Shown: positions 6,180 through 28,953 of the stretch, piece after piece | Layout: the number at the start of each line of letters is the position of its first letter | How positions within the stretch are numbered: position 1 is the first letter of the stretch | NCBI GenBank assembly: GCA_012515985.1 | Contig: JAAYXJ010000062.1 | Span: 1-32,313 of the forward strand | Direction of reading: 5' to 3' | DNA from: Gammaproteobacteria bacterium | Lineage (GTDB): Bacteria; Pseudomonadota; Gammaproteobacteria; Xanthomonadales; Xanthomonadaceae | Length of the DNA stretch: 32,313 bases | The notes under the pieces: generated by a model | Databases searched by the model: none | What the model was told of the DNA's origin: nothing | What the model saw: the letters and a program-made list of their open reading frames with translations, nothing else | Program-made: the position numbers and the translations under genes

Positions 6180-7775
6180 TCACGCCGCGGCCTCCTCCGC
6201 CTGCGTGGCCGCAGCCGGGGCGGAGGTGCGGATGATGTGGTCAAAGGCCGCCAGCGCCGCACGCGAGCCTTCGCCCATCGCGATGACGATCTGCTTGTAC
6301 GGCGTGGTGGTGCAGTCGCCGGCGGCGAACACGCCCGGCACGTTGGTGCGGCCGTGGCTGTCGGTGACGATCTCGCCGCGGTCGGACAGTTCCACCGTGC
6401 CCTTGAGCCATTCGGTGTTGGGCAGCAGGCCGATCTGCACGAAGATGCCCTCCAGCGCGACCTCGTGGCTTTCGCCGGTGGTCCGGTCGGTGTACACCAG
6501 CCCCGTCACGCGCTTGCCGTCGCCCAGTACCTTCGTGGTCTGGGCACTGGTGAGGATGGTCACGTTCGGCAGGCTGCGCAACTTGCGCTGCAGCACTTCG
6601 TCCGCGCGCAGCTTCGCGTCGAACTCGAGCAGGGTCACGTGGGCGACGATGCCGGCGAGGTCGATCGCGGCCTCGACGCCCGAGTTGCCGCCGCCGATCA
6701 CCGCCACGTGCTTGCCCTTGAACAGCGGGCCATCGCAGTGCGGGCAGTAGGCCACGCCCTTGTTGCGGTACTCGTTCTCGCCCGGCACGTTCATCTGCCG
6801 CCAGCGCGCGCCGGTGGACAGGACCACCGTCTTCGCCCGCAGCGAGGCGCCGTTGGCAAGCTGGATCTCATGCAGGCCGTCGTCGCCGGCCGGCACCAGC
6901 GCCTCGGCGCGCTGCAGGTCCATCACGTCCACGTCGTACTCGCGCACGTGCTGCTCAAGTGCCGCCGCCAGCTTCGGACCCTCGGTGTGGGGCACGGAGA
7001 TGAAGTTCTCGATCGACATCGTGTCCAGCACCTGGCCACCGAAGCGCTCGGCGGCAACGCCGGTGCGGATGCCCTTGCGGGCCGAGTAGATCGCCGCGGC
7101 CGCGCCGGCCGGGCCGCCGCCGACCACCAGCACGTCGAACGGATCCTTGGCCGCGATCTGCTTCGCCATGCGCTCCTCGGCGCCGGTGTCGATCTTGGCC
7201 ACGATCTGCTCCAGGCTCATGCGGCCCTGGTCGAACGGCTTGCCGTTGAGGAACACGGTCGGCACCGACATGATCTCGCGCGCCTCGACCTCGTCCTGGA
7301 ACAGGGCGCCGTCGATGGCGACGTGGCGGATGTTGGGATTGAGCACCGCCATCAGGTTCAGCGCCTGGACCACGTCCGGGCAGTTCTGGCAGCTGAGCGA
7401 ATAGTAGGTTTCAAACAGGAACTCGCCCTCCAGGTTGCGCACCTGCTCCAGCGTTTCCCCGGCGGCCTTGGGGGGATGCCCGCCAACCTGCAGCAGCGCC
7501 AGCACCAGCGAGGTGAACTCGTGGCCCATGGGCAGGCCGGCGAAGCGCAGGTGGATGTCCTGGCCCGGGCTGGTCAGCGCGAACGACGGCTTGCGCTCGT
7601 CGTCATCGCGCACCACGTCCACGCTGATCAGCGCGCTGGCCTCCTGCAGGTCGTCCAGCAGCGACAGCATCTGGGCCGACTTCTCGCCGTCATCCACGGA
7701 TGCGGTGATCTGGATGGGGCGCGTGGCGCGTTCCAGGTAGGCCTTGAGCTGGGCTTTGAGATCGGGTTCCAACAT
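6180..7775 (-). CDS. ahpF: Alkyl hydroperoxide reductase subunit F
   Basis: [29 protein letters not shown]...; [15 protein letters not shown] (N-terminal CxxC); [54 protein letters not shown]. Confidence 0.97.
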
Positions 7776-7842
7776 GCGTGGGTCTCCTGCGGACGAAAAC
7801 GTGGGTTCGCGACGCGCCGCCAGGCGGGCATCGGTTGGGGGA

Positions 7843-7919
7843 GGGAGTGAACCGGAGCCCGCGCGCCGGAATGGCTGGCGGCGGCTGGCTGGCCCGGGAA
7901 CGGGCTCCGGTTCACTCCC
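7843..7919. repeat. Perfect 19-bp inverted repeat (gggagtgaaccggagcccg 7843-7861 / cgggctccggttcactccc 7901-7919) in the ahpC-ahpF intergenic region
   Basis: Arms are exact reverse complements, separated by 39 nt; the right arm overlaps a GC palindrome cccgccccgcggggcggg (7917-7934). Confidence 0.9.
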
Positions 7920-7955
7920 GCCCCGCGGGGCGGGACGGGAGTGGGGTACTGCGGT

Positions 7956-7975
7956 TGCAGCCCTGGAAGGGCTGC
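7956..7975. terminator. Hairpin just after the ahpC stop (gcagccct / agggctgc, short loop); possible terminator or processing hairpin without a U-tract
   Basis: Reading +: ttgcagccctggaagggctgcgtt, an 8-bp inverted repeat with a 3-nt loop, a few nt downstream of the ahpC stop on the minus strand. Exact ends approximate by 1-2 nt. Confidence 0.45.
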
Positions 7976-7980
7976 GTTGC

Positions 7981-8544
7981 TTAGATCTTGCCGACCAGGT
8001 CCAGCGACGGCTTCAGGGTCTTCTCGCCTTCCTTCCACTTGGCCGGGCAGACCTCGTTCGGGTTGGCGGCGACGTACTGGGCGGCCTTCAGCTTGCGCAG
8101 GGTCTCGCTGACGTCGCGGGCGATGGCGTTGTCGTGCACTTCCATCGTCTTGATCACGCCTTCCGGGTTGATGATGAAGGTGCCACGCAGGGCCAGGCCT
8201 TCGTCATCCAGGTGCACGCCGAAGGCGCGGGTCAGCTGGTGGGTCGGGTCGCCGACCAGCGGGAACTGGGCCTTGCCCACCGCGTCGGAGGTCTCGTGCC
8301 ACACCTTGTGGGAGAAGTGGGTGTCGGTGGTGACGATGTACACCTCGGCACCGGCCTTCTTGAACTCCTCGTAGTTCTCGGCGGCGTCCTCGACCTCGGT
8401 GGGGCAGTTGAAGGTGAAGGCGGCCGGCATGAAGATCAGCACGGACCACTGGCCCTTCAGGCTGGCCTCGGTGACTTCAATGAACTCGCCGTTGAGGTAA
8501 GCGGTGGTCTTGAAAGGCTGGACTTCGGTATTGATCAGGGACAT
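7981..8544 (-). CDS. ahpC: Alkyl hydroperoxide reductase subunit C (peroxiredoxin)
   Basis: [61 protein letters not shown]...[33 protein letters not shown]; resolving Cys context [27 protein letters not shown]. Confidence 0.97.
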
Positions 8545-26075: not shown

Positions 26076-27962
26076 ATGAAGGATGCTCCCCGGGTCCACC
26101 CCAAGGTCCAGGCCCTTGCCGCAGCGACCATGCTTTCCCTCTCGATGTCCGCCGCGTTCGCCGCGGACGACCTTTCCAACCTGCTCCTGGCCGAAAAGCC
26201 GGTCAAGGGCCAGTACATCGTGGTGCTGAAGGAAGAGACCGCAGCCCTGGCCAGCGAGACGGCGGCGCGGTCCGGCGCCCCAAGGGTCGCTGATGTGGCC
26301 GGCTCGCTCGCGCGCTCGCACCGGCTCGATGTGGTGCATTCCTATCAAAACGTGCTGCGCGGCTTCGTGGCCCGGGCCGACGACCGGGCGCTGGCGCGCC
26401 TGCTCAGGGATCCGCGCGTGGAGTTCGTCGAGGAGGACGGGATCGTCAGCATCTCCGCCACGCAGAACAATGCGACCTGGGGCCTGGACCGGATCGACCA
26501 GCGCAACCGCCCGCTCAACGGCACCTATGTCTACGACACAAGCGCGCCCAGCGTGCACGCGTATGTGATCGACACCGGCATCCGTGCTTCCCACAACGAC
26601 TTCGGAGGGCGGGTTGGCAGCGGCTACAGCGCGATCAGCGACGGCCGCGGCAGCGACGATTGCAACGGCCACGGCACCCACGTCGCCGGCACCGTGGGGG
26701 GCGCAACCTGGGGCGCGGCCAAGCAGGTGCGGCTGTACCCGGTCCGGGTGCTCGGGTGCGACGGCTCGGGAACCAACTCCGGCGTGATCGCGGGCATGGA
26801 CTGGGTGGCCAGCAACCACAGCAAGCCGGCTGTGGCGAACATGAGCCTGGGTGGCGGCGCGTCCACCGCGACCGACCAGGCCGTGACCCGCATGCGCAAT
26901 GCCGGCGTCACCGTGGTGGTCGCGGCGGGAAATGACAACGGCAACGCATGCAACTACTCGCCCGCGCGGTCAAGTTCGGCCATCACCGTGGGCTCCACCA
27001 CCAGCAGCGACGCGCGATCGTCGTTCTCCAACTACGGCAGCTGCGTGAACATCTTCGCCCCGGGCTCCTCGATCACTTCCGCCTGGCACACCAGCAACAC
27101 GGCCACCAACACCATCAGCGGCACCTCCATGGCCGCGCCGCACGTGGCGGGCGTCGCCGCGCTGTACCTGGCGGAGAACCCGGGGGCCAGTCCGTCCCAG
27201 GTGGAGAACGCGCTCTATGCCAACGCCACCACCGGCGTCGTCGGCAACCCCGTGGGTTCGCCCAACCGTCTGCTGTATTCCCGGTTCGACGGCGGCGGTG
27301 GCGGCGACCCGGATCCCGGCCCGGGCCCGGGCGAGCTCGGCAACGGGGTGCCGGTCACGGGGATCTCGGGTGCCAGCGGCAGTGCCCAGTACTGGACGAT
27401 CACGGTGCCGGAGGGAGCAACGAGCCTGGGGATAACCATTTCCGGCGGCAGCGGCGACGCCGATCTGTACGTGCGGCGCGGCGCGCAGCCGACCACGTCA
27501 ACCTACGACTGCCGCCCGTACCGCACCGGCAACAACGAAAGCTGCAACTTCTCCTCCCCGCAGGCGGGCGTGTACCACATCATGGTGCGCGGTTACTCGT
27601 CGTTCTCCGGGGTGACCCTCACCGGTACCTACCAGGCTGGTGGCGGCGGCGGAAGCCAGCTCCAGAACGGCGTGCCGGTGACCGGGCTGTCGGGAGCGGC
27701 GGCCAGCGAACGCAGGTACACGTTCAACGTGCCCACCGGCGCGCGCAACCTGGTGATCCGCACCAGCGGCGGCAGCGGCGACGCGGACCTGTACGTGCGC
27801 CGGGGTTCGCCCCCCACCACGTCCGCCTACGACTGCCGGCCGTACCGTGCCGGCAACAATGAAACCTGCACGGCCTCCGCGCCGCAGGGTGGCACCTATC
27901 ACGTGATGGTGCGGGGTTATTCCTCGTACTCCGGCGTGACCCTCAGCGCGAGCCACGACTGA
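26076..27962 (+). CDS. Secreted subtilisin-like serine protease (S8) with signal peptide, I9 propeptide and two C-terminal PPC domains
   Basis: Signal peptide near [20 protein letters not shown]; propeptide [10 protein letters not shown]...[12 protein letters not shown]; catalytic Asp YVIDTGI, His [10 protein letters not shown], Ser [10 protein letters not shown]; two PPC repeats. RBS ggagg before ATG. Confidence 0.96.
27334..27630 (+). repeat. PPC-domain coding repeat 1 within the subtilase gene
   Basis: [98 protein letters not shown]. Boundaries approximate. Confidence 0.85.
27655..27957 (+). repeat. PPC-domain coding repeat 2 within the subtilase gene
   Basis: [97 protein letters not shown]; near-copy of repeat 1. 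Boundaries approximate. Confidence 0.85.
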
Positions 27963-27977
27963 GCGGCACGTTCCGCG

Positions 27978-28007
27978 GCGGCACCCCGCTAGACTGCGGG
28001 GTGCCGC
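27978..28007. terminator. Perfect 12-bp stem hairpin (gcggcaccccgc-TAGACT-gcggggtgccgc) after the subtilase; probable terminator lacking a U-tract
   Basis: Exact inverted repeat 27978-27989 / 27996-28007 with 6-nt loop, 15 nt after the subtilase stop. Confidence 0.6.
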
Positions 28008-28025: not shown

Positions 28026-28361
28026 ATGGACACCATCGAGCTCCCCGGGGATGGCCCCTGGCAGCGCTTCATCATCAAATTCCGCGACGGCACCGCGCCG
28101 CGCGCCGACCCGCGCCATGCCCAGGCACGGCTGGACCGTGCCGCGGCGGGGGCAGCGGAGAGCGGGGTGCCCGGCCTGCGGCTGGCCTGGCTGCGCAGGC
28201 TCGGCATCGGCGCCGATGTCTTCGCGGCCGACCGCCCGCTCGGGCACGACGCGGCACGCTGGCTGATGCGTACCCTGGCCCAGGACCACGAGGTGGAATT
28301 CGTGGAAGTGGACGCCGTGATGCGGGCCTTCGGCCCGGGAGAGGACGCGGCGCGGCCCTGA
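28026..28361 (+). CDS. Free-standing S8 peptidase propeptide (I9-like) protein without protease domain or signal peptide
   Basis: WQRFIIKFRDGTAPRADPRHAQARLDRAAAGAAESGVPGLRLAWLRRLGIGADVFAADRPLGHDAARWLMRTLAQDHEVEFVEVDAVMRAFG resembles the prodomain of bacterial S8 proteases; in-frame TAG at 27990 with no intervening start precludes an N-terminal signal peptide. Confidence 0.65.
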   Translation: MDTIELPGDGPWQRFIIKFRDGTAPRADPRHAQARLDRAAAGAAESGVPGLRLAWLRRLGIGADVFAADRPLGHDAARWLMRTLAQDHEVEFVEVDAVMRAFGPGEDAARP

Positions 28362-28370
28362 ACGGGTGGA

Positions 28371-28856
28371 TCAGCCCGCCGCCTCGAAGCGGTTGGCCTC
28401 CACGTTCTTGCGCACCTTGCGCGGATCCCAGATGCGTCCGTTCATGGCGATCCAGGTGCCCGGCGGCAGGCACTGCACGGCGCCCACCGCGGTGCCGATG
28501 TTGAACTCGGCATCCGAACCGCGGAACCGCGCTGGGTTGAGCGCGCCGGTGAGCACGATGGTGCGGTCCAGCCCGTCCAGGGCGCGGGCGGTCTCGACCA
28601 TCGAATCGGTGCCGTGGGTGATGAGCACGTGTCGGGTGGGCTGGGCGACGACGGTGGCGCGGATGAGGGCCCGGTCGTCATCGGTCAGGTGCAGCGAATC
28701 CTTGCGCAGGATGGGGATGACGCGGAACCGGAAGGCCACCCCGAGTTCCTCGAGGATCCGCCCGATCTGCGGTTCGCCGACCTGGAAGTCGGACTTGTCG
28801 TCGAAATACACCTTGTCGATGGTGCCGCCGGTGGTGACGATCAGCAGCTCTTCCAT
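28371..28856 (-). CDS. Short asparaginase-domain protein (N-terminal domain only, about 160 aa)
   Basis: MEELLIVTTGGTIDKVYFDDKSDFQVGEPQIGRIL...VLITHGTDSMVETARAL...IVLTGALNPARF (TGGTID and HGTDSM motifs). Confidence 0.88.
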   Translation of the reverse strand: MEELLIVTTGGTIDKVYFDDKSDFQVGEPQIGRILEELGVAFRFRVIPILRKDSLHLTDDDRALIRATVVAQPTRHVLITHGTDSMVETARALDGLDRTIVLTGALNPARFRGSDAEFNIGTAVGAVQCLPPGTWIAMNGRIWDPRKVRKNVEANRFEAAG

Positions 28857-28953
28857 TCGGTCTTTCCAGCCATCTTCGCGGGCGCACATTCTAGCCGCTG
28901 CCAGGCCCGGAGCGGCCGCGCGCGCAGGGCCCGGGGCACCCGGCGCGGGCCGG

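Follow-up and report, generated by a model that had tools for sequence, protein, structure and literature searches.

A stand-alone S8 prodomain protein without a signal peptide, from a Lysobacteraceae family of candidate trans-acting subtilase inhibitors

What might a subtilase prodomain do when it is encoded apart from any protease? The question is raised by a short gene at positions 28026..28361, forward strand, of a 32,313-nucleotide stretch of gammaproteobacterial DNA (here called the window). The gene runs as an intact open reading frame (ORF) of 111 aa from an ATG at 28026 to a stop at 28361, beyond which lies a convergent gene, so that the product lacks a catalytic domain and is free-standing. 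Upstream there is an in-frame TAG at 27990, with no start codon between it and the ATG. The codon-usage log-odds of the ORF frame is 27.2, against -16.9 and -45.7 for the other two forward frames, and its GC3 of 0.88 is the same as that of the neighbouring subtilase; the Shine-Dalgarno (SD) site is weak (-3.9 kcal/mol). An earlier, sequence-only reading had described a complete protein resembling an S8 prodomain, with neither a catalytic domain nor an export signal, and both parts of that description are borne out, the first by the ORF, its homologs and the predicted fold, the second by the TAG and the lack of an in-frame leader. A plasmid origin was considered and dropped, there being no plasmid match.

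Predicted with AlphaFold2 from an alignment with 27 homologs, the protein alone adopts the b-a-b-b-a-b topology of a prodomain (mean pLDDT 87.3, pTM 0.77), with strands at residues 12-19, 53-58, 63-72 and 90-95 and helices at 29-46 and 74-85. Profile searches were less informative. The ORF product had no match at E<10 in Pfam or NCBIfam, including Inhibitor_I9 (PF05922), a match that the sequence-only reading might have led one to expect, and the best of the 27 homologs reached E 0.035, short of the PF05922 gathering score; kinship with S8 prodomains therefore rests on the homologs and the structure. Foldseek returned weak matches in the PDB, mainly generic ferredoxin-like folds and among them an Aspergillus fumigatus alkaline protease entry, and these matches alone do not identify the fold as a prodomain. 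Matches to RecA in a PDB profile search were taken as spurious.

Homologs were found in most of the Luteimonas members included in a search of related genomes that was a sample and not an exhaustive survey, the window genome itself being 74% complete and genes being called by a simple codon-usage script. The set used for phylogeny comprised 56 stand-alone copies from Luteimonas, Lysobacter and related Lysobacteraceae, the loci being read individually. In a maximum-likelihood tree of 157 prodomains a branch supported at 99/93 sets all 56 apart, and prodomains attached to proteases form separate branches; the alignment has about 100 columns and leaves many inner forks unresolved, and the placement of the window copy and its closest relative, L031, inside the stand-alone clade is weak (100/37). 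As judged from this tree, the stand-alone gene most likely had a single origin and is old. That the window ORF is instead the decayed remnant of a full-length protease, made recently by truncation, was the main alternative in the sequence-only reading and is now highly improbable. Remnants of this kind do occur: in the tree a single further short ORF, L148:12795-13163, falls outside the clade and resembles a true one, and a Caballeronia ORF (L081:7662-8306) likewise looks like the truncation of a protease gene and is probably another. The L148 ORF, however, groups among the attached prodomains, whereas the window copy lies inside a clade of 56 stand-alone genes, a position that rules out an isolated truncation among full-length homologs, and it has its synteny in common with intact, leadered orthologs.

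A search for conserved stand-alone copies next to subtilases, as the earlier reading had proposed, found an S8 gene on the same strand within 6 kb in 51 of the 56 loci and an S1 gene within 6 kb in 43; five copies of the Lysobacter clade have no adjacent protease. The usual order in Luteimonas is an iron-sulfur assembly gene, an A-type S8 subtilase, an S1 protease of lysyl-endopeptidase type, the stand-alone prodomain and a convergent asparaginase gene. The last serves as a syntenic marker, being kept as a neighbour in most loci, and is represented in the window by an asparaginase N-terminal-domain gene (PF00710) at 28371..28889 on the reverse strand. Some Luteimonas (L064, L066, L067, L132, L133, L135) carry in place of the stand-alone prodomain a gene of 445-455 aa, M28-type aminopeptidase-like as assigned by eye from its sequence. 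In Lysobacter sp. GX 14042 (L116:7985-8300), outside the 56 copies counted, a prodomain ortholog without leader or neighbouring proteases apparently starts with GTG, immediately after the gene for iron-sulfur assembly.

The window and L031 depart from the usual order, with a proteinase-K-like subtilase (26076-27962 and 6598-8172, respectively) at the site where an A-type subtilase and an S1 protease usually lie. The window enzyme, on the forward strand, is a complete, secreted subtilase of the proteinase-K/aqualysin kind according to Pfam and a PDB sequence search, with two PPC domains and, as had been claimed before, a propeptide of its own (PF05922, E 1.2e-9). It is a possible target of the adjacent stand-alone protein; it is probably not the original partner, because in the lineage of the window and L031 the prodomain of this enzyme reaches 18-20 bits with the stand-alone profile, whereas complete prodomains from the enzymes usually adjacent in Luteimonas reach about 79-102 bits. 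With the usual neighbour protease replaced in this way the target of the window protein is uncertain, and could be either the adjacent enzyme or another exported subtilase. A cytosolic S8 target was considered and rejected, for by eye the remaining S8 proteins encoded in the window genome and in G030 begin with what look like signal peptides.

Between the subtilase and the ORF lies a perfect 12-bp hairpin (27978..28007, forward strand; RNA fold z -4.9), which is terminator-like but, in the window, lacks a T run; the similar hairpin of L031 (z -3.3) is followed by TTTT. A hairpin of this strength makes co-expression of the two genes uncertain. In L032 and L033, too, terminator-like hairpins occur 3' of the upstream protease. 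Fusion to the preceding subtilase by read-through was discarded as an explanation, for although the two genes share a frame in the window, two stops intervene, and in L031 the frame differs.

Leaders distinguish the window copy from most of its family. They were classified by a simple rule of hydrophobicity and lipobox, after which each was compared by eye with the reading frames, the classes of L142, L153 and L155-L157 being set by eye where the start was miscalled or the rule missed the lipobox. On this basis 52 of the 56 stand-alone copies have a leader, about 41 of them predicted lipoproteins and 11 Sec-like, and four have none, namely those of the window, L031, Luteimonas suaedae (L032) and L. 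endophytica (L033). In L. suaedae (L032:6267-6338, the same in L068) a signal-peptide-like ORF, MPAHLHAGLLALMLAATPAGAEES, persists out of frame; its TGA stop overlaps the prodomain's own ATG, an arrangement that looks as though a small indel had cut the leader off. The leader of L. endophytica is decayed. The exported form is thus common and was probably ancestral. The leader appears to have been lost separately in L. suaedae, in L. endophytica and in the lineage of the window and L031, the domain ORF staying open each time, which would make the cytoplasmic form in the window lineage probably a derived one. The earlier suggestion of a cytoplasmic, immunity-like inhibitor accordingly survives in part: the window copy is leaderless, but the family is for the most part not cytoplasmic.

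A second start may bear on the same point. Of 32 leadered stand-alone genes of Luteimonas, 25 have an in-frame ATG no more than 16 codons ahead of the domain, 17 of them with an SD site of -6 kcal/mol or stronger, as against 3 of 38 attached Luteimonas prodomains with such an ATG and 0 of 38 with the SD site, counts that are not independent given the relatedness of the sequences and that include some ATGs at the lipobox. Some close relatives lack the SD-like site. It is conceivable, if doubtful, that a single gene yields two products, an exported (lipo)protein and a cytosolic inhibitor with no leader, and that lineages such as that of the window kept only the second; this idea is a lead and not a result.

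The stand-alone proteins retain, by motif, the acidic pair with which a prodomain docks, and have lost the site at which it is cut. For the BPN' propeptide a helix-capping acidic pair that docks onto the S8 enzyme has been described (PMC6993865). Its motif counterpart in the window protein is Glu94-x-Asp96 (28305..28313, forward strand); the Glu is present in 56/56 stand-alone copies and the Asp in 55/56, with Glu in the remaining one, the pair having been read by eye in seven of the 56. Comparison of stand-alone and attached tails shows that the TPND autoprocessing junction of the latter is gone in stand-alone copies, commonly with Gly/Asp-Pro instead, and in the window it is replaced by the C-terminal tail AVMRAFGPGEDAARP (28314..28358, forward strand). 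The retained acidic pair and the lost junction fit a protein that would dock on an S8 enzyme without being cut from it. Several stand-alone proteins (L034, L039, L040, L042, L043, L045, L126 and others) end in RGD.

A dN/dS test, also proposed with the original observation, indicates purifying selection on the domain: none of the compared pairs reaches a ratio of 1, and the values lie at 0.09-0.36, apart from one near-identical pair at 0.55. For the window against L031 the ratio is 0.33-0.36, the upper end of the range, with pN clearly lower than pS (Fisher p 1.2e-5, site counts approximate); the leaderless L033 compared with the leadered L123 gives 0.16. The window copy therefore looks still constrained, and may be partially relaxed. 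The main rival explanation for it is indeed a slowly relaxing relic, in which the family is functional elsewhere and the window copy, under weakening constraint, no longer matters. We regard this as a real but unlikely alternative. Consistent with it are the absence, at the locus in this lineage, of both the leader and the original A-type subtilase and S1 neighbours, the weak ribosome-binding site, the position of the window pair in the dN/dS range, and a three-species count that gives the leaderless L033 8 nonsynonymous and 11 synonymous changes and the leadered L123 3 and 15, a small difference. Against it, the window and L031 copies are both intact at 111 aa with Glu-x-Asp kept and pN well below pS, and a similar dN/dS of 0.28 is found for L035/L127, two leadered copies whose dS matches that of the window pair.

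It is narrowly probable, in our judgement, that the window ORF is an ortholog belonging to a family of trans-acting S8 inhibitors, most of them in the envelope and this one predicted to be cytosolic. The computations show the intact reading frame, the fold, monophyly, synteny, the distribution of leaders, the conserved docking pair, the loss of the processing junction and purifying selection; inhibition, location, target and the function of the leaderless form are what we infer. On this view the old stand-alone prodomains of the Lysobacteraceae would tightly inhibit, in trans, subtilases that the bacterium itself exports, and would themselves be poorly cleavable. Contact with the S8 enzyme would be made by the sheet of the prodomain and by the Glu-x-Asp helix caps, and the tail would occupy the substrate groove uncut. 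In most species export as a lipoprotein, or by Sec, would place the inhibitor where it protects the envelope from subtilases on their way out; in the window lineage the leaderless protein could neutralise subtilase that folds prematurely, a role that has been suggested for Spi and the staphostatins. Considerations that weigh against an inhibitor here are the weak SD site, the upstream hairpin, the identity of the ORF product to that of L031, which at 58% is lower than that of its neighbours (SUBT 88%, YihY 97%), the absence of the A-type and S1 neighbours, and the five protease-free loci of the Lysobacter clade.

Of the two roles offered by the sequence-only reading, inhibitor and folding factor, it is the former that we infer. 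S8 prodomains are folding catalysts, and placement as a lipoprotein recalls membrane-anchored foldases such as Lif, so that a trans-acting chaperone, which would help exported subtilases to fold rather than block them, has its attractions. It is nonetheless improbable: a leaderless copy could not reach an exported, unfolded enzyme, and the neighbouring subtilases have complete prodomains of their own, so that an extra foldase is not needed.

Trans-acting inhibitors of the kind proposed have parallels. SUB1-ProM of Plasmodium is a stand-alone, subtilisin propeptide-like inhibitor (PMC6993865) with which the Lysobacteraceae proteins share the free-standing prodomain fold, synteny with subtilase genes, the docking Glu and a proposed role as endogenous regulator; it differs in being eukaryotic, in having no lipoprotein forms and in that its inhibition has been demonstrated experimentally. 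The stand-alone inhibitors of MEROPS family I9, such as Pleurotus ostreatus proteinase A inhibitor 1, yeast proteinase B inhibitor and Arabidopsis SPI-1 (PMC6993865), likewise have a free-standing propeptide-like fold and S8 targets, as is presumed for the window protein, but are eukaryotic, and the window protein has no significant Pfam I9 match. Within bacteria the likeness is one of working principle and not of family: in the SpeB-Spi pair of Streptococcus pyogenes, the staphostatins and Bfi of Bacteroides the inhibitor is encoded next to an exported protease, Spi is an analogue of a propeptide, lipoproteins are predicted among the Bfi, and protection against ectopic protease has been proposed (PMC2873492), but the enzymes are cysteine proteases and the folds unrelated. 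The window protein has the Spi-type feature of lacking an export signal. Its gene adjoins that of a subtilase which may or may not be its cognate protease, for the prodomain of that enzyme is unlike the family and a terminator-like hairpin lies between the two genes. The attached N-terminal prodomains of Lysobacteraceae S8 subtilases are homologous (47-102 bits to the stand-alone profile) and share the Glu-x-Asp motif, but are joined to a catalytic domain, conserve the TPND junction and occupy separate branches of the tree.

Stand-alone propeptide-like subtilase inhibitors are documented in fungi, plants and protists, and we found no report of a bacterial one for S8 enzymes in the open-access literature, which does not prove absence; the Lysobacteraceae family is a candidate for this bacterial counterpart. 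If the proposal is true, stand-alone prodomains would provide genetically encoded inhibitors of compact size for subtilisin-type enzymes, and the repeated loss of the leader would amount to a natural experiment on where protection is needed. Luteimonas and Lysobacter carry arrays of secreted proteases, and the family would then explain how such heavy exporters of proteases shield their own envelope.
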